A program made the translations under genes and the position numbers. DNA of 21,644 bases from a virus. The DNA is taken from positions 1-21,644 of the IMG/VR virus record IMGVR_UViG_3300005528_000228; one strand, given 5' to 3'. Numbering within the stretch: position 1 is the stretch's first letter; each line of letters starts with the position of its first letter. Below, one piece after another: positions 2,773 through 21,644 of the stretch. The notes below the pieces were generated by a model, which saw nothing but the letters and a program-made list of their open reading frames with translations, was not told the origin of the DNA and ran no database searches.

Positions 2773-3297
2773 ATGGCCGCGAAGAAAAACCCGCGGAAGA
2801 TCGGTGCAAATGGCGAGGCGAAGCGCGTGGCGTTCCTCGCCGCGATAGGCAAGGGCCTGTCGATCACGGAAGCGTCGGGCGTGTCCGGGCTCAATCGCAA
2901 CACTGCGGGGCGACTGCGAAAGCAGGATAAGGAATTCGCGCTTGCCTATGACCAGGCGATTGCGGAGGGCCGGCACTATCTCGCTGCCGAAGCCACGCGC
3001 CGCGCCGTGGAAGGCACCGAAAAGCCCGCGCTGCATCAGGGCCGTGAGGTCTACACGCTGAACCGCGAGACCGGGGAATTGCAGCCCTTGCGGCTCCGCG
3101 AATATTCGGACGTGTTGTTGATGTTCCTCATGAAAGCCCGCGATCCGATGCGCTATGACGATCGAATTCGCGCCATGAAATTTGAGCGGCGTTGGCGGAA
3201 GCGTGACGGCGAGGGCGACGGCGACGCGGTCGCGCCGGCGGACGTAATCGACATGTTGGCGAAGCTGGCGAGCCAGAAGGCAAAGGAAGCCGCGTAG
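2773..3297 (+). CDS. terS: Terminase small subunit
   Basis: The small terminase recognises phage DNA and recruits it to the packaging motor. The 174-residue product has an N-terminal basic stretch and a helix-turn-helix at about residues 26-51 (GKGLSITEASGVSGLNRNT, then RLRKQ). A helical oligomerisation-type region follows, and the end is charged. Position directly before the large terminase and overlap with it (TAGTG) support the call. ATG 2773 is chosen over an in-frame TTG at 2752. Its best ribosome site, AGGGAA, is rather far, about 12-14 bases, so initiation may be weak. The sequence is diverse in this family, so the call rests on HTH plus context. Confidence 0.8.
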   Translation: MAAKKNPRKIGANGEAKRVAFLAAIGKGLSITEASGVSGLNRNTAGRLRKQDKEFALAYDQAIAEGRHYLAAEATRRAVEGTEKPALHQGREVYTLNRETGELQPLRLREYSDVLLMFLMKARDPMRYDDRIRAMKFERRWRKRDGEGDGDAVAPADVIDMLAKLASQKAKEAA

Positions 3298-4637
3298 TGA
3301 GTGCGCGCCACGAAATAGCGGCGCGGCTCAATGGCGCGAACCGCTACACGCTCGAGCTTGTCGGCTGGCGCGCCCGATGGCTCGAGACGGCGCGCCCGAA
3401 ACAGATCCCGCCCGATGGCGATTGGAGCACGTGGCTACTGCTTGCCGGGCGGGGTTTCGGTAAGACGCGCCCGGGCGCGGAGGAAATCGGATTTCAGGCA
3501 GCGTCGCAACCCGCCACGCGCTGGGCAGTCGCCGCGCCGACGCAAGCGGACGTGCGCAACGTATGCTTCGAAGGGGAAAGCGGCCTTTTAGCCGTGATCC
3601 CGCCCTATCTCCGCATGCCGGGCCCGCGCGGGTATTCTTCGCAAGCGCTACGGATCACGCTCCGCAACGGGTCGATAATTCAGGGATACAGCGCCGAAAA
3701 GCCCGATCGGTTCCGCGGTCCACAACACCACGGCGCATGGTGCGATGAGCTCGCATCGTGGGGTGCGTCCGCCTCGAGTGCACCCGGGAAGGCGCCAAGC
3801 AATCGCCTTCAAGACGCGTGGGACAATCTGCTGCTTGGGCTTCGGCTCGGGAAGCGTCCTCGAATTATCGCCACGTCCACGCCGCGGCCCATCGATTTCT
3901 TACGGGCACTGATCAAGGATTCAGGCACGGCGGTAACGAAGGGAAACACTTTCGAAAATGCGGCCAATCTTGCCCCGTCGGCGCTGGCCACGTTCAAGAA
4001 AGTATTTGAAGGCACGCGGCGCGGGCAGCAAGAGCTTTACGCCGAAATCCTCGAGCACGCGGAAGGCGCGCTATTCAGCCCCGCAACAATCGAGCTTCAC
4101 CGCATACGCGACGGTGAGCAACCGCAATTCGTGCGGATCGTTGTTGCGATAGATCCCGCCGTGACGGCCGAAGTGCTCGAGGGCCGGAAAAGCGACGAGA
4201 CAGGAATTATCGTGTGCGGCCTTGCCGCTGACGGCCGGATTTACGTGCTGGACGACTTTTCGGGCATCTACAAGCCGCGGGATTGGGCGCGCATGGCGCT
4301 ATCGGCCTATGAGCGGTACCAGGCGGATTGCATCGTCGGCGAAATCAATCAGGGCGGCGATCTGATCGAAGGCAATCTAGCCGCGGAGGCGGGTAATCGC
4401 GCGGCGTTCGCCTTCAAGGGCATTCACGCCAAGCGGGGTAAATACCTCCGCGCGGAGCCGATCGCCGCGCTGTATGAAAAAGGAATTGTTTCGCACGTCG
4501 GACATTTTCCGGCACTTGAGAAACAAATGTGCAACTTCCTTGGTTTTACGGGCGAAAATTCCCCTGATAGACTTGACGCCCTTGTCTATGGCGTCGGCGA
4601 ACTCGCGCTAGGAACCGCAACTCATGAGTTTTTCTAA
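3297..4637 (+). CDS. terL: Terminase large subunit (packaging ATPase/nuclease)
   Basis: This is the motor that pumps DNA into the prohead and cuts it. The N-terminal ATPase domain shows Walker A GRGFGKT at residues 51-57, Walker B AWCDE at 147-151 and the coupling motif IATSTPR at 191-197. The C-terminal RNase H-like nuclease has candidate metal ligands D286 (VVAIDPA), E349 (GEINQGG) and D427 (RLDALVYG). The 446-residue length is normal for the short terminases of the Terminase_6/GTA-like type. It starts at a GTG sharing one base with the terS stop and overlaps the portal start by 14 bases. The ATPase site closely resembles gene-transfer-agent terminases of alphaproteobacteria. Whether packaging is headful or cos-type cannot be told from the sequence alone. 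Confidence 0.95.
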   Translation: MSARHEIAARLNGANRYTLELVGWRARWLETARPKQIPPDGDWSTWLLLAGRGFGKTRPGAEEIGFQAASQPATRWAVAAPTQADVRNVCFEGESGLLAVIPPYLRMPGPRGYSSQALRITLRNGSIIQGYSAEKPDRFRGPQHHGAWCDELASWGASASSAPGKAPSNRLQDAWDNLLLGLRLGKRPRIIATSTPRPIDFLRALIKDSGTAVTKGNTFENAANLAPSALATFKKVFEGTRRGQQELYAEILEHAEGALFSPATIELHRIRDGEQPQFVRIVVAIDPAVTAEVLEGRKSDETGIIVCGLAADGRIYVLDDFSGIYKPRDWARMALSAYERYQADCIVGEINQGGDLIEGNLAAEAGNRAAFAFKGIHAKRGKYLRAEPIAALYEKGIVSHVGHFPALEKQMCNFLGFTGENSPDRLDALVYGVGELALGTATHEFF

Positions 4638-15569: not shown

Positions 15570-15977
15570 GTGGATAGGTTGCCGGGATGGGAACAGCGAT
15601 TGCAAGCGATCTTCGATCGCGAGAACGGCGCCCCGTTCCAATGGGGTCGCGCGGATTGTGCGACGTTCGCGGCGGATTGCGTCGAAGCGGTCACGGGGCG
15701 CGACGCACTCGGGCCGTTGCGCGGCTCCTACGCATCGCGGATCGCGTCCCGTGCGCGGATGCGCGCTCGCGGCTGGCGCACGATGGCCGAAGCGGCGGGC
15801 GGCGTGCTCGAGGGCATGGGCGCGCGGCCCGTGCCGCCGCGGTTCGCGAGTGCGGGTAGTATCGGCGTGACTGCGGACGGTGCGCTATGCGTCCGCTTCC
15901 CTGTCGGGTTTGTCGCGCGGTTCGCTGACGGTCGTTTCGGCCTCGCGGCCAATGTCGAAAAAGCGTGGGATCTCTGA
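15570..15977 (+). CDS. NlpC/P60-like tail-tip protein (DUF6950-like)
   Basis: Start GTG 15570 is preceded by GAGGG 7 bases upstream and lies three bases after the previous stop. The 135-residue protein opens LPGWEQRLQAIFDR and has FQWGRADCATFAADCVEAVTG at residues 23-43. That is the cysteine motif of NlpC/P60-like tail proteins, with Cys30 as the would-be nucleophile. A glycine/Arg-rich middle and a beta C-terminal part (VCVRF-like, then GLAANVEKAWDL) follow. No histidine occurs anywhere in the chain, so the classical Cys-His catalytic pair is missing and peptidase activity is doubtful. In lambda and GTA the corresponding protein lies before the tip hub, as here. Confidence 0.72.
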   Translation: MDRLPGWEQRLQAIFDRENGAPFQWGRADCATFAADCVEAVTGRDALGPLRGSYASRIASRARMRARGWRTMAEAAGGVLEGMGARPVPPRFASAGSIGVTADGALCVRFPVGFVARFADGRFGLAANVEKAWDL

Positions 15978-18025
15978 TGCCTAATTTGCTCGCGCAAGCT
16001 GCGATCGGTGCCGCCGTTTCGGTAGTGACGGGGTTTCTCGCGCGCAAGCTCGCCAAGAAACCGAAGACGGAAACCACGCTTGCGCCGGCGACGCCTCGCC
16101 CGATGACGGATAACTTGACGGCGAGCGTGGAAGTAGGAAGCCCGCTCCCGGGCGTGTTCGGGCATCGGCGCGTAGGCGGCAAAATCGTGGTCTCCGCGAA
16201 GTCGGGTACGAAAACTTACAACGTCATCATGATCGCCGGCGCGCCCGTGACTGCGATCAACGCCGTGTTTTTCAACGACAGGCTTTTGTCGATCGACGGA
16301 AGCGACCGCGTCACAACTTCACCTTGGGCGAAGAACGCCGAATATTCCGCGCGCGTGAAGCTCTACAGCGGCGCGCAATTGACGGCAGACCCGTGGCTTA
16401 CTGCGGCATTCCCGGGCTGGAAGGCGGACCACGTCGGCAAGCAGATCGCATATGCGGTTGTCGAATTTGATCCCGCCGTGAACCCGACCGCGTTCGATAA
16501 AGTCTATCAGGCCGGCACGCCCGACATCACTTTCGACGTGTCGGGCTTCCGTTGCTACGATCCACGAAACGGCGCGCACAATATCGCGGACCCGACCACG
16601 TGGGGCTATTCGTCCAACGCGGCAATCATCAAAGCCAATTACCTCATTCATGCGCTTGGCGCGGCGTTGCCCACGTCCGCCGTCGATTGGCCATCGGTGA
16701 CGGCCGCGGCAAACATCTGTGACCAGGCGGTTACGCTAAAGGCCGGCGGCACGGAAGCGCGCTACACGTGCGCCGCGCAATGGCTCACGGATGAGCGGCA
16801 TGAAGACGTTCTAGCGCGCATGAACGCGGCGGACGCGGGGCGCGTGCATCTTGTCGGAACGAAGTGGCGCGTGTCATCCGGGGCCGCCGTAGCGTCTTCG
16901 GCGTCGATCGGCGTCAACGACTACGCGGGCGACGGCCTGTCGTTCAGCGATACCCCGCCGCTCGCCGAGCTCGTGAACAGCGTGCGCGGGAAGTTTTCAA
17001 GCCCACTGCATAACTATGAAGATCGGGACTTTCCGCCGTGGACCGATGCCGCGGCCGTGGCCGCCGACGGGCGGGAAGCGTGGCTGGATCTGGACTTGGC
17101 TTTTGTCACGTCCCCGACGCAAGCCCAGCGCCTTGCGAAGATCGCCTATAATCGCGGGCGGTTCGGCGCGGAGGCGGCCGTTACGACAGGCTTTCAGCAT
17201 TTCGACGTTGTAGCCGATGACGTGATTTCGCTAACTGACGACATGGCGGGATTTGCCGCGACCGCGTTCCGCGTCGTCAGCGAGGAAGTGCAGGACGATT
17301 TCACAATTCGGTTCACGCTCGAGCGCGAAGACGCTTCGTTCTGGGCGTGGACCGCGGCCACGGATGAAAAAGACTTTCTCGCCTATGAGCCCTTGCAGGG
17401 CGAGACCGGCAACCCGCAACCACCGGGCTTCTGGCTCTATCGCAGCGTGTCCGCACCGAACGTTTTCGTCGTTATGCGCTATTGGGAAAACTCGTCCCCG
17501 ACGACGGCCGTAGACACGCATGCATGGACGTACACGACAGTAACGGAAGTGGCGGCTAGCGCTACCACGGGTGGCTCGCGAAACCTTGGAAGCGGCGGCG
17601 CTAACTTTCTCGCGAGTACGGTGCAAGGCAAGATCGCAGCAACCGCGGAGCTATCCGCGGCCGTGGCAGTGGCGGGCGGCACGCAAGCGAGCCTTACGGG
17701 CGCGGATATCAACACGCCCGTTGCCCCGCATTACTACTTGCCGCCTCCGCGTCGGCCGTTCGCCGCCGGCGTGCATTCTGGAAGCGTCACGCTTCGCGTT
17801 CCGCAAGTGCCGGGCTCGAAATCCGCCGAAATTGAACTATGGGAAAACACGACAAACGTTTTCGGCACGGCGACGCTGTTGTCCACGCAAACGAACGACG
17901 CGGACGGCCTTTCGCACGTCGTTTCTGGCACGTCCGGACAGGTCAAATTCTATTGGGCGCGGACGAAGAACGGGCCGGATAGCAAATTCTCGCCGCCGTC
18001 GAATGCTGCGTTGATTGTGTTCTAA
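15977..18025 (+). CDS. Tail tip hub / host-specificity (gpJ-like) protein
   Basis: The central tip protein contacts the host and closes the tube. The 682-residue product starts with a hydrophobic span at about residues 4-22 (LLAQAAIGAAVSVVTGFLA) followed by a basic patch. This opening resembles the membrane-active start of lambda gpI/J-type tip proteins. Then come a beta-rich hub region with GSPLPGVFGHRRVGGKIV and IMIAGAPVTAINAVFFND, and several wing domains. A C-terminal immunoglobulin/fibronectin-like module at about 585-682 includes SVTLRVPQVPGSKSAEIELWE. ATG 15977 overlaps the previous TGA by one base. The length is short for gpJ (about 1100 in lambda), so a separate fibre or receptor-binding protein is probably encoded further right. 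Confidence 0.82.
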   Translation: MPNLLAQAAIGAAVSVVTGFLARKLAKKPKTETTLAPATPRPMTDNLTASVEVGSPLPGVFGHRRVGGKIVVSAKSGTKTYNVIMIAGAPVTAINAVFFNDRLLSIDGSDRVTTSPWAKNAEYSARVKLYSGAQLTADPWLTAAFPGWKADHVGKQIAYAVVEFDPAVNPTAFDKVYQAGTPDITFDVSGFRCYDPRNGAHNIADPTTWGYSSNAAIIKANYLIHALGAALPTSAVDWPSVTAAANICDQAVTLKAGGTEARYTCAAQWLTDERHEDVLARMNAADAGRVHLVGTKWRVSSGAAVASSASIGVNDYAGDGLSFSDTPPLAELVNSVRGKFSSPLHNYEDRDFPPWTDAAAVAADGREAWLDLDLAFVTSPTQAQRLAKIAYNRGRFGAEAAVTTGFQHFDVVADDVISLTDDMAGFAATAFRVVSEEVQDDFTIRFTLEREDASFWAWTAATDEKDFLAYEPLQGETGNPQPPGFWLYRSVSAPNVFVVMRYWENSSPTTAVDTHAWTYTTVTEVAASATTGGSRNLGSGGANFLASTVQGKIAATAELSAAVAVAGGTQASLTGADINTPVAPHYYLPPPRRPFAAGVHSGSVTLRVPQVPGSKSAEIELWENTTNVFGTATLLSTQTNDADGLSHVVSGTSGQVKFYWARTKNGPDSKFSPPSNAALIVF

Positions 18026-18051
18026 AAGCCGCACGGCTATGGTGCGCCGCG

Positions 18052-18702
18052 ATGACGATCATAAACCAGAGATGGCCGAATGATCTTATTCCGGAAGCGT
18101 GCCAGTTCGGCCGTTCGCGGAACGATCAATTGCAGGTTTCGCCGCGCACTCGCGAAACTCATGTCATCCGCATGGGCCGCCCTTTGTGGTCCGCCGAGCT
18201 TTCATGGACAATGCCTAGCGGCAACACGCTGGCGAAGCTCCGCTACTGGCTCGAAGAATTGGACGGCTTCGCGGGCAGCGCGCAAATCTGGAATTTCGCC
18301 GCACCGCATCCTATGCCGATCGGAACGACGGCGCTTCCGACGCACTGGCAAGCCGGTTCCACGGTCCAGATCGCCGCCGGCGCGTCGATCAACGCAACAA
18401 GCGTTGCGCTCAAAGGCTTGCAAGCGAGCCAGCCCGCCGTAAAGCAGGGGCAGCCAATCCAGATCGGTCGGCGCATTTACATCGCCGCCGCGGACGTGAA
18501 CGCCGACGGCAGCGGCAACGCGACGGTCGGCTTGACGGGCGGGCTTCTGGCCGCGGCCGTCACTGACGACATTGTGAGACTTCGCGACGCGGCTTGCGAA
18601 ATGCGGCTCGCGGAACAGAGTTTCACCGAAGAAACGGAAGCACAAACCGGCTGGACGCGTATTCGCGCGAGCTTCGTTGAGACCGTAACGGACTTCGCAT
18701 GA
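18052..18702 (+). CDS. Tail protein with beta-sandwich modules
   Basis: This 216-residue protein is coded 26 bases after the hub, with a weak ribosome site. It starts MTIINQRWPNDLIPEACQF, with a strand/helix N-terminal region similar to distal tail proteins (WxPxELSWTM, LRYWLEELDGFAGSA). It ends with a second domain holding INATSVALKGLQASQP, GQPIQIGRRIYIA and DGSGNATVGLTGGLL. Segments of this kind, with a GxPIQIGxxxY and a SGNATV loop, occur in small tail and baseplate proteins. Position suggests a tip accessory. A specific name is not supported. Confidence 0.6.
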   Translation: MTIINQRWPNDLIPEACQFGRSRNDQLQVSPRTRETHVIRMGRPLWSAELSWTMPSGNTLAKLRYWLEELDGFAGSAQIWNFAAPHPMPIGTTALPTHWQAGSTVQIAAGASINATSVALKGLQASQPAVKQGQPIQIGRRIYIAAADVNADGSGNATVGLTGGLLAAAVTDDIVRLRDAACEMRLAEQSFTEETEAQTGWTRIRASFVETVTDFA

Positions 18703-19118
18703 GACGCGACATGAACCGAACCGACGAAACGGCAGAACGCGCGGAAGTGCTGGCCCATACTAAAGGGCTCGAGCAACGCGTGGACGGGATCGAGCGCGCC
18801 GTGGACGTGCTCGGGAAACGCTTCGACCGGGTAAGCGGCAACATCAACGACAAGTTGGACGCGCTCGCGCGTGCGGTCACGCTGCAAGCCGCGCAACCGC
18901 AATTCTCGATAACGGCCATGCTTCAAGTCGTGGTCATGTGCACAGCGTTGCTTGGCTCGGGCGCCACGGCCACGATCTGGATTGCCACGTCAATTGCTGC
19001 CGGGCCGGTCGCGGAGCTCCGCACGAAGCTGGACCACGAACGCGATTCAACCCGCCGGCTCGAGCGCATGATTGAGCGCTTGGCCGATCGCATTCCGGAC
19101 AGGATCGCCACGCGATGA
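18699..19118 (+). CDS. Coiled-coil membrane protein, holin candidate
   Basis: The 139-residue protein has a helix with heptads at residues 23-60 (GLEQRVDGIERAVDVLGKRF, then NINDKLDALARAV). A hydrophobic region follows at about 70-103 (ITAMLQVVVMCTALLGSG, then ATIWIATSIAAG). It may be one long span or a hairpin of two. A second charged coiled coil lies at 107-133. This coil-membrane-coil layout directly before an endolysin suggests a holin or a lysis-timing protein, similar in plan to XhlA-type proteins. The ATG overlaps the previous TGA in ATGA, and its own stop overlaps the endolysin start. Another in-frame ATG at 18711 is possible. Confidence 0.6.
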   Translation: MRRDMNRTDETAERAEVLAHTKGLEQRVDGIERAVDVLGKRFDRVSGNINDKLDALARAVTLQAAQPQFSITAMLQVVVMCTALLGSGATATIWIATSIAAGPVAELRTKLDHERDSTRRLERMIERLADRIPDRIATR

Positions 19119-20032
19119 AATACACTTTCGAACACTGCCGCGCCGACTACGTGAACAACTGGCACGAGATGGCAGTTCGGCCCCGCTACGCTGCCGCCGT
19201 AGCTGCTAGCGCGCGCAAGATCCTTCAAGGGCGCGATCGGTATATGGCGGTTGCGCGCGAAACGGGCGTGCCATGGTTCGTCATCGGCATCATTCACAAG
19301 ATGGAATGCAACTGCGATTTCGGGAAACACCTTCACAACGGGGACAGTCTGCGCAAGCGCACATGGCGCGTTCCGGCCGGGCGCCCGAAGTCTGGCAAGC
19401 CGCCGTTCGCGTGGGAAGAAAGCGCAATCGACGCTATCCGGTACGACAAGCTCGACCATATCAAGAAATGGTCGGTAGAGGTCGCGGCGTTCGCGTTCGA
19501 AAAGTACAACGGCTTCGGATCGCGCCGGCGCGGCGTTCCAAGTGCCTATCTGTGGTCATTCTCGACAGTCTACACGCGCGGGAAATTCGTCCGGGATCAC
19601 GTATGGGACGCTAACGCGATCTCGGAACAAACCGGCGCGATGGTGCTCATGAAAGAGCTATTCCGGTTGCAGCCGTCGCTTGCGTTGCCCGTCGGCGAGC
19701 CGACTGCGGTCCGGATCGACGAAGATAGCCGCGAAGGCTATGGCGAGGAACCGCCGCTGCGCCAGTCGCGCACGGTATGGGGCGGCGTGCTCGCGGGCTT
19801 CGGCGCGGCCATCACATGGGCATGGAACAAGATCGGGCTTACCGTGGACGCGGTCGGCAACGTGGCGGGCGACGTGATCGAATCCGCCGACGGCATCGCG
19901 TCCAGCGCGGGGCGGGTCGCGGAGCTTGTCGGGCTCAATCTTCCCTACATCGGCGCGGCGGCACTGATCGCCGGGCTTTATCTCGTCATCTACGCGCGCA
20001 CGGATGCGCGCCGCAACGGCAAGGTCGGGTAA
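19115..20032 (+). CDS. Endolysin (lysozyme-like), with C-terminal membrane segments
   Basis: The enzyme cuts peptidoglycan at lysis. The N-terminal domain at residues 1-185 carries HKMECNCDFGKHLHNGD, where Glu64 is the likely catalytic acid. It also has RTWRVPAGRP and PFAWEESAIDAI, YNGFG at 131-135 and SAYLWSFSTVYTRGKFV. These mark a recognisable family of phage and bacterial lysozyme-like proteins. After an acidic linker (about 195-215) come a hydrophobic amphipathic region, AGFGAAITWAW (about 225-238), and a strong membrane span, PYIGAAALIAGLYLVIYA (about 277-294), ending in a basic tail. No N-terminal signal is present. The gene overlaps the preceding holin candidate by 4 bases and ends one base before the next membrane protein. 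The domain call is firm; the membrane topology is inferred. Confidence 0.85.
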   Translation: MKYTFEHCRADYVNNWHEMAVRPRYAAAVAASARKILQGRDRYMAVARETGVPWFVIGIIHKMECNCDFGKHLHNGDSLRKRTWRVPAGRPKSGKPPFAWEESAIDAIRYDKLDHIKKWSVEVAAFAFEKYNGFGSRRRGVPSAYLWSFSTVYTRGKFVRDHVWDANAISEQTGAMVLMKELFRLQPSLALPVGEPTAVRIDEDSREGYGEEPPLRQSRTVWGGVLAGFGAAITWAWNKIGLTVDAVGNVAGDVIESADGIASSAGRVAELVGLNLPYIGAAALIAGLYLVIYARTDARRNGKVG

Positions 20033-20033
20033 C

Positions 20034-20417
20034 ATGACACTGATCGCTGGCTTTCTCGCAAAGGTCGCGGCAAGCGGCGCTTGGGCGTGGTTCGGCAAGC
20101 TGATGAGCGGCTTCGGCACGGCTGCCGCGGCGTTCTTCGCGGCCATTCCGGCGCTTCTGGACGCGGTAACGCGGTTCTTCGAAGCGCTTAGTAAGAATGC
20201 CCTAATGGCGTTCGTGATTGCCGGTCTCGTCTTCGGGGCTTGCGGCTTCCTCTATGGCGTGTCGTTGGACAAAGACATCAGAGCACGCGACAAGGCTCGA
20301 GCGATTGCAACCGCAAACGCCAACGCGGACAGGGCGATTGCGGCCATTCGCGCTGACTACGAAAAGCGGCTGGCCGATCTTCGCGCCCGAATGCCGCGCA
20401 CTGCCGCCAAGAGGTAA
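20034..20417 (+). CDS. Membrane/coiled-coil protein, i-spanin candidate
   Basis: ATG 20034 is chosen, one base after the endolysin stop. The 127-residue protein has an amphipathic Ala/Phe-rich N-terminus (residues 3-50), a clear membrane span at 56-76 (ALMAFVIAGLVFGACGFLYG) and a charged coiled coil to the end (KDIRARDKARAIATANANA, then YEKRLADLRARM). Inner-membrane spanins have one span followed by a periplasmic coiled coil, so the C-terminal half fits. The long N-terminus does not. No o-spanin lipoprotein with a credible lipobox is visible nested in or after it. The alternative is a second holin-type protein. Confidence 0.6.
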   Translation: MTLIAGFLAKVAASGAWAWFGKLMSGFGTAAAAFFAAIPALLDAVTRFFEALSKNALMAFVIAGLVFGACGFLYGVSLDKDIRARDKARAIATANANADRAIAAIRADYEKRLADLRARMPRTAAKR

Positions 20418-20421
20418 CCGC

Positions 20422-21312
20422 ATGGCTCGCCGGTTTGCACTCCCCGAAATGGACGAACCAATAGGGGAGTGGCTAGACCGGCGTTCGCGCGCTTTCGATC
20501 GCCGCCAAGCGCGGCGCAAAGCCGAAGCGTGGCTTCCGATCGCAATTCCCGAGCATCGCGGGCGGCCGTTCGGCGTCGCGTTCTTCGGCGACATGCACGC
20601 GGACAACCCGGATTGCAATATCCCGCTTCTCCGTGCGGACCTAGCTGCGGTCGCGAGCACGGCCGGAATGTTCGGCGTGCACGTCGGCGACGGAACCGAT
20701 AATTGGGTCGGCCGCCTGATGTCTAAATTCGCCGAAAGCGAGACGACACAAAAGCAAGCGCGCCGGCTCATTCAACACATTCTGCACAAGGCCGGCGTCG
20801 ATTGGCTGGCATGGATCGGCGGCAACCACGACAAGTGGAACGAAGGGCTTGCGATCCTCGGGTTGCTCGCCGGCGATTCGTTCTATCTGCCGTTTTGGGA
20901 AGCCAAGCTCGAGCTTCGGTGCGGGCGCGAGAAATTCCGCGTTCACGTGGCCCATGATTTCCGCGGCCATTCGGATTGGAACATTACGCACGGGCCGCTA
21001 AAGGCCGCCTACAAGGGCAGCGTCGCGGATCTGTACGTGTGCGGGCACAAACATGATTGGGGCATTCAACAATTCGAGATTGCCGGCCATGGCCGCGTAG
21101 TCCATGCGGCTCGAGCCCGTGGCTACAAGTGGGCCGATGATTACGCGACGGAGCACGGATTTCAGTCCGCCAGCCACGGCGCGGGCATTGTCGCGATCTT
21201 CGATCCGCGTGAGAAAAACCCGGCGCGGCGCATTATGCTTGTGCCGGATATCCAGCACGGTTGCGCGATCCTCGCCGCGCTCCGCGGCGAAAGGCCAAAG
21301 CGCAAGCGTTGA
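20422..21312 (+). CDS. Calcineurin-like metallophosphoesterase
   Basis: This family hydrolyses phosphoesters with a two-metal centre. The 296-residue protein shows all the signature motifs: GDMHAD (Asp57, His59), GDGTDN (Asp90), GGNHDKW (Asn135, His136, Asp137), HDFRGH (His178) and CGHKHDWG (His209, His211). An N-terminal helical, Arg-rich stretch (residues 1-45) precedes the domain. GAGG lies 8 bases before the ATG. It follows the lysis genes and is in the same orientation. Metallophosphoesterases in phages serve in DNA, RNA, nucleotide or protein dephosphorylation, so the substrate cannot be named. Its C-terminus is basic (RPKRKR). The complete motif set suggests an active enzyme. Confidence 0.88.
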   Translation: MARRFALPEMDEPIGEWLDRRSRAFDRRQARRKAEAWLPIAIPEHRGRPFGVAFFGDMHADNPDCNIPLLRADLAAVASTAGMFGVHVGDGTDNWVGRLMSKFAESETTQKQARRLIQHILHKAGVDWLAWIGGNHDKWNEGLAILGLLAGDSFYLPFWEAKLELRCGREKFRVHVAHDFRGHSDWNITHGPLKAAYKGSVADLYVCGHKHDWGIQQFEIAGHGRVVHAARARGYKWADDYATEHGFQSASHGAGIVAIFDPREKNPARRIMLVPDIQHGCAILAALRGERPKRKR

Positions 21313-21316
21313 TGCG

Positions 21317-21346
21317 TTGGCGCTGGTAAATCAAGGCCGCTACACT
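21317..21346 (+). promoter_or_regulatory. Candidate promoter before the last gene
   Basis: TTGGCG (21317-21322) and TACACT (21341-21346) have an 18-base spacer in the 60-base gap before the terminal gene, the largest non-coding gap in the right-hand third. Each hexamer matches consensus at four of six positions. Confidence 0.3.
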
Positions 21347-21372
21347 GCCCGCGCTAAATTCGAGGGTCGCGC

Positions 21373-21644
21373 ATGTCCGCCTGGTACACGGTCAATTTCT
21401 CGCTCGCGAATAACGCGGATTGGGAACAAGAATTTCAGATGAAAGATACCGCGGGCGCGGCTATCGATCTGACGGGCGCGGCATTCGAAATGGACGTGCG
21501 CGACCGCGCCGGCACTGAAATTCTCACGTTGACGACGGGCAACGCGCGGATCGTGATCACGAACGCCGCGGCCGGAAACTTCAAGCTGATCGTGCCCGCG
21601 TCTGTCATGCGCACGCTTCCGACGGGCGGCTATGCGCACGATCT
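21373..21644 (+). CDS. Tail fibre/baseplate-type protein, N-terminal part (runs off the window)
   Basis: ATG 21373 has GAGGG 6 bases upstream and the frame stays open to the edge, giving 90 codons. The protein starts MSAWYTVNFSLANNADWEQ and continues as alternating strands with DLTGAAFEMDVRDRAG and ILTLTTGNARIVITNAAAG. This N-terminal module, with DLTGxxhxMxVR, occurs at the front of phage tail-fibre or baseplate-attached proteins. Receptor-binding fibres are missing from the rest of the window, which makes this the best candidate for their start. The rest of the gene must be seen to say more. Confidence 0.7.
   Translation, partial: MSAWYTVNFSLANNADWEQEFQMKDTAGAAIDLTGAAFEMDVRDRAGTEILTLTTGNARIVITNAAAGNFKLIVPASVMRTLPTGGYAHD

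Follow-up and report, generated by a model that had tools for sequence, protein, structure and literature searches.

The window, as the whole stretch of viral DNA analysed here (an IMG/VR virus fragment of 21,644 nucleotides) will be called, carries a metallophosphoesterase (MPE) gene close to its end. The genes run in the order terminase, portal, protease, major capsid, connectors, tape measure, tail, J-like tail (beginning at 15965), distal tail, three small genes, the MPE and an ORF matching phrog_1084. The features from the distal tail gene onward are as follows.

18052..18702, + strand: distal tail protein (phrog_1302, 1.4e-25)
18699..19118, + strand: small membrane/coiled-coil protein, putatively holin-like; read from the ORF, with no match from PHROG
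19115..20032, + strand: endolysin-like protein with a hydrophobic C-terminal segment; homologous to L001 and Bradyrhizobium phage proteins
20037..20417, + strand: membrane protein with a coiled-coil-like tail, putatively holin/spanin-like; codon-position GC backs the frame
20422..21312, + strand: MPE gene, 296 aa plus stop (phrog_7339), without an N-terminal DNA-binding module
20587..20598, + strand: motif I, GDMH (D57 in 84/84 rows, H59 in 83/84)
20686..20703, + strand: motif II, GDGTDN (D90 84/84, N94 81/84)
20821..20832, + strand: motif III, GNHD (N135, a ligand, and H136, the counterpart of H451, the proton donor of DP1 according to PMC10721889; both 84/84)
20953..20955, + strand: motif IV, H178 within VAHDF (84/84)
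21043..21054, + strand: motif V, GHKH (H209 82/84, H211 84/84)
21373..21644, + strand: phrog_1084 protein of unknown function (1.4e-13), cut by the contig end

The MPE gene and its neighbours

The MPE frame opens with the ATG at 20422, 4 nt past the end of the membrane ORF 20037..20417; its final sense codon reaches 21309 and the stop occupies 21310-21312. An upstream extension to the TTG at 20218 (364 aa) was ruled out, as the codon-position GC fits the 20037-20414 frame. The five motifs make up the complete ligand set of the calcineurin-like MPE superfamily (D-x-H, D, N-H, H, H-x-H), and the ligands are conserved in 82-84 of 84 distinct rows, the window among them, which bears out the initial annotation of a complete enzyme with all its metal-binding motifs intact. 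The protein matches phrog_7339 at E 2.6e-31 over residues 30-266; the label of this family in PHROGs v4, 'DNA repair exonuclease', is an annotation rather than an assay. Pfam alone misses the gene, Metallophos_2 falling below the cut-off at E 0.029. Because of the phrog_7339 match, at least 537 related stretches in a single IMG/VR scan, a confident AlphaFold model (pLDDT 90.1, pTM 0.88) and the conservation of the motifs, the ORF is not a product of chance: it is a real, intact phage enzyme gene, and an ordinary one from an under-studied family.

The surroundings are compact. From 18052 up to the MPE, genes overlap or lie no more than 5 nt apart, and 60 nt separate the MPE from the next ORF. 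In the region 17900-21644 the promoter scan found 0 against 0.8 expected and the terminator scan 4 against 4.4 expected; tRNA and Rfam scans found nothing.

The product of ORF 19115 is called endolysin-like on account of its homology to L001:3599-4510 from a related IMG/VR locus (41% over 186 residues) and to a protein of Bradyrhizobium phage ppBjS10J-1 deposited as 'peptidoglycan-binding protein', and because four aligned members of the group have an invariant glutamate in common (E64 of the window, in IHxxE). It has no Pfam match and no PDB sequence match, and in IMG/VR six pattern matches yielded no relative; perhaps it represents an unlisted lysis family. ORFs 19115 and 20037 also lack a PHROG match, ORF 20037 has no NCBIfam match, and the phrog_1084 neighbour found no match when searched in phages. 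The MPE had initially been placed after lysis genes in a late operon. The late run of terminase, capsid and tail genes is indeed there, and a place after lysis genes is reasonable; the lysis assignment itself is weaker than was stated, being partly inferred and without PHROG matches.

A family with varied N-terminal modules

The relatives sampled are the 80 best matches from each of three IMG/VR scans and 4 more that overlap with them, together with 9 loci from the GTDB genome collection and 4 phage records, so that the sample is weighted toward near kin of the chosen seeds. After 8 helper or duplicate loci were dropped (L005, L096-L102), 252 loci remained, reduced to 84 representatives with cores at most 75% identical; the window counts as one of each set. 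All 48 members scanned match the phrog_7339 profile, and the nearest relatives, among the matches listed, are 42-44% identical to the window protein. The abundance in IMG/VR contrasts with cultured phages, where only 4 of 50,697 records hold a family member; among plasmids there are 2 in 72,556 records, both in phage-like regions. Literature searches, judged on titles and abstract openings, turned up no description of an HTH-fused phage metallophosphoesterase.

The first of two features beyond the initial annotation lies ahead of the catalytic core. In the window protein 55 residues precede motif I, whereas 82 of the 84 representatives have a longer N-terminal part (lengths follow a start-codon rule favouring 85-175 residues ahead of motif I), and in 72 of the 84 this part holds a recognisable HTH or zinc ribbon. 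The HTH is found in 64, by an HMM of the N-terminal part. A CxxC...CxxC zinc ribbon replaces it in 8 (L186, L222, L201, L207, L246, L259, L218 and L256), and some of these match transposase ribbons in Pfam. Other segments occur in 10, judged by eye, and some of them look HTH- or Myb-like. Pfam matches among the 84 comprise HTH_8 (23), HTH_30 (21), HTH_1 (7), HTH_23 (6), HTH_28 (6), Zn_ribbon_IS1595 (3), Zn_ribbon_InsA (2), the homing-endonuclease-associated HNH_repeat (1) and Terminase_5 (1). The N-terminal part of L024:5824-6858, a member assigned by eye, is probably the single PF18780 match among the 84.

Only two representatives are without a module, the window and L178. The second (L178:1622-2902 and 2926-3873) likewise has its MPE directly behind an endolysin-like ORF. 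In the core tree the window groups with L001, L010 and L088, all HTH-bearing; the 15-row set around it has an SH-aLRT of 99, and an inner group of 5 has 90, this group including L176, a poorly filled long-branch row. The HTH-bearing proteins L001, L003 and L010 are 42-43% identical to the window protein, which lacks their HTH; L001 also has an endolysin-like neighbour in common with the window, and the L001 and L003 proteins end in a long basic tail. Since the window is nested among HTH-bearing rows, its copy has lost the module, a derived state. A six-frame scan of the window found no HTH remnant near 20 kb; one near-threshold hit (E 0.0093) was rejected as a remnant, sitting in the frame of the far-off ORF 1619-2203.

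Other members of the family exchanged the module, since the zinc ribbon arises in two separate groups of the tree. Two P. aeruginosa phages, MPK9 and PAE2, offer a related case. They have flanking DNA in common with phage IME307, a cultured carrier of the family, and hold HTH-MPE proteins (L260:1890-3026 and L261:1991-3124) in a slot comparable to that of the IME307 gene. Their first 50 residues are 96% identical (48/50), the remainder 37% (122/326), which marks the junction of module and core as a recombination point. The relationship of these cores to phrog_7339 members is marginal (E 0.00017 and 0.025 against a database of 8 proteins). The MPK9 protein was deposited as 'putative DNA polymerase, small subunit, C-terminal domain'.

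Predicted fold and known enzymes

The model of the window protein has the superfamily fold, with 400 of 995 chains aligned by VIA at Z of at least 8. Its best match, by Foldseek and VIA-align, is DP1, the subunit of archaeal DNA polymerase D (PolD) that serves as proofreading exonuclease (Z 17.8 and 3.2 A over 218 residues, 11% identity), followed by the B-subunit of human Pol-delta (16.1), Mre11 (13.6), LpxH (13.2) and Vps29 (13.2). This list re-examines hits from Foldseek, and the ranking covers the listed families; the Foldseek TM against DP1 is a modest 0.53. For the model of HTH-bearing L001, DP1 again comes first (17.4), ahead of an archaeal phosphodiesterase (15.4 over 162 residues) and Mre11 (14.2).

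The likeness extends to the predicted active site. PMC10721889 gives the DP1 ligands as D360, H362, D404, N450, H497, H560 and H562, with H451 as the catalytic histidine, and to these residues, H451 in its place after N450, correspond D57, H59, D90, N135, H136, H178, H209 and H211 of the window model, in the same order and with the same local spacing. The correspondence supports phosphodiester chemistry and offers a lead to DNA. It is not taken as membership, since the protein fits neither the DP1 nor the SbcD profile: there is no match to PF04042, the profile of the polymerase B-subunits, and at a threshold of E 0.1 the window has none to TIGR00619, that of SbcD/Mre11. The 296-aa protein has no room for the separate OB domain of DP1, no DP2 partner lies within the 21.6 kb fragment, and SbcC, the partner one would look for beside an SbcD-like enzyme of common fold and motifs, is not seen there either. 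Among PDB sequences, neither the protein nor profile A2 found a convincing match to the MPE core.

Two further memberships were rejected on the motifs. PPP phosphatases carry the signature GDxHG, GDxxDRG and GNHE; the window reads GDMHA, GDGTDN and GNHD. The LpxH form of motif III is GNRD, and the window has GNHD.

Genomic context and possible function

How unusual is the position of the gene? The initial annotation had remarked that the MPE lies in a late operon rather than with replication genes, but this is no ground for surprise. A lysis-type ORF lies in the fetched flank of 24 of 41 non-redundant loci (the window included, as L005), a count containing cluster c5 (4 loci), recognised by no PHROG, and c14 (2 loci), whose match is to a tail-lysozyme profile and, weakly, to an endolysin one. 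The 41 loci come from the first scans and exclude L023, L041 and L043, where the first ORF caller missed the MPE; lysis clusters were scanned by one representative each, or two for c5 and c6. An integrase of one cluster occurs in the flank of 7 of the 41. Endolysin families are the most frequent among upstream ORFs within 3.6 kb (110 of 145 scanned), and phrog_1 and phrog_216 integrases, 9 each, are the commonest among downstream ORFs (106 from a list of 126, plus two dNMP-kinase ORFs added by hand). Because late placement is ordinary for the family, by itself it is no argument for a special late function.

Other positions occur as well. In IME307, FBPa42, CBP1 and an Aquitalea plasmid-prophage the family gene lies between replication genes and Q/terminase, and in IME307 it stands directly before Q with a 4-nt overlap. 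The genes of IME307 and FBPa42 are 97% identical amid unrelated upstream DNA; in such flank comparisons the pairs are related, not independent.

Several observations on individual loci can be added. Marine contigs (L045, L053, L061, L065, L068, L075, L086 and kin) have a conserved stretch of some 200-220 bp, apparently without coding function, ahead of the MPE; their homology ends about 220 bp upstream, and the preceding genes, probably tail genes, are exchanged between contigs. In L001 (6869-7462) and L003 (6914-7474) a dNMP-kinase-like gene directly follows the MPE, and then an integrase on the opposite strand. On the Rhodovastum plasmid a 372-bp ORF within prophage tail/lysis genes (L262:4929-5300) is predicted by PLSDB to encode an OCH beta-lactamase, probably a false call, and MPK9 has a putative anti-CRISPR AcrIF7 gene (L260:4968-5171) inside its lysis gene region.

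What, then, may the enzyme do? Most likely the window protein is a two-metal DNA phosphodiesterase or nuclease, made late and lacking the usual DNA-targeting domain, a reading in which our confidence and our doubt are about equal. Five loops would place D57, H59, D90, N135, H178, H209 and H211 around two metal ions, an arrangement supported by their conservation and by the DP1 match. By analogy with DP1 and Mre11, a metal-bound hydroxide would attack the phosphodiester and H136 would protonate the leaving group; beyond metal ligation, the chemistry is inferred. In most relatives the N-terminal HTH, or sometimes a zinc ribbon, would set the MPE core on DNA. The window protein begins at the linker; having no targeting domain of its own, it would work on DNA ends or structures unaided or be led to them by a partner. 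To judge from its position, it is probably translated late with the lysis genes, during recombination and packaging of phage DNA.

The modules of the relatives, the DP1/Mre11-like fold and the phrog_7339 match speak for DNA as the substrate, and of the late roles suggested initially it is the processing of DNA ends that they favour. On the other side, a shared fold shows no function, the DP1 and SbcD sequence models do not match, the chief argument for DNA, the module, is missing from the window copy itself, and in lambda the same slot is occupied by a protein phosphatase, NinI.

Another of these suggested roles, counteracting host defence, looks unlikely. Here the enzyme would degrade cyclic (oligo)nucleotide or 2',3'-cyclic phosphate signals and so shield late infection. 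The predicted fold fits Rv0805-type phosphodiesterases as well (Foldseek), the loss of the module is easiest to accept if the substrate is soluble, and PMC7824862 predicts that T5 A1-like calcineurin phosphodiesterases in jumbo phages act in this way. However, an enzyme that removes small signalling molecules would not be expected to carry DNA-binding modules such as those of the 72 representatives, late expression would probably come late for signal clearance, and nothing points to defence, with no PADLOC match for the window protein.

It is quite improbable that the window protein is a NinI-like phosphatase, an MPE dephosphorylating host or phage proteins. The comparison is suggested by gene order, since lambda ninI, like the IME307 relative, immediately precedes Q and overlaps it by 4 nt, and NinI is itself a phage MPE. 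Yet the window protein belongs to a different subfamily, without the PPP signature, and most of its relatives bear DNA-binding modules, of which lambda NinI has none.

Very doubtful, too, is that the family consists of site-directed mobile, homing-like nucleases, with the window copy as a crippled, immobile remnant. Its swappable modules, with a homing-endonuclease-associated repeat in one of the 84, its patchy positions and the near-identical gene of IME307 and FBPa42 in differing upstream DNA would suit such mobility, but mosaic exchange of whole modules accounts for the same pattern, and the lysis gene of the window, being without IMG/VR relatives, allows no empty-site comparison there. We know of no homing endonuclease with the MPE fold. 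That the gene is a truncated, inert leftover is hardly credible: despite the missing N-terminal domain and only 43% identity to the nearest relatives, the 296-codon frame is open, all catalytic residues and a normal coding GC pattern are kept, the start codon directly follows the previous gene, and L178 provides a second module-less member in a like position.

The favoured reading, a late DNA phosphodiesterase, can be extended to the family, although we regard the extension as speculative and on the whole improbable. In it, phrog_7339 would be a large family of nucleases directed to DNA and seldom met in cultured phages. Its members would join a DP1-like core to an exchangeable module (HTH, zinc ribbon or homing-type repeat), an MPE counterpart to the modular HNH/GIY-YIG phage nucleases; the window would hold a natural module-less form, moved to the late operon and acting on DNA ends.

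In phages, metallophosphoesterases are a frequent annotation but seldom receive an explanation. Two features go beyond the initial annotation, the two-part architecture of the family and DP1 as the closest fold to the window model. The modular family is more interesting than the window copy itself. A single catalytic core combined with interchangeable DNA-binding modules suggests a concrete hypothesis, that of DNA targeting, and for the role of the module the two copies without it, in the window and in L178, are natural controls.
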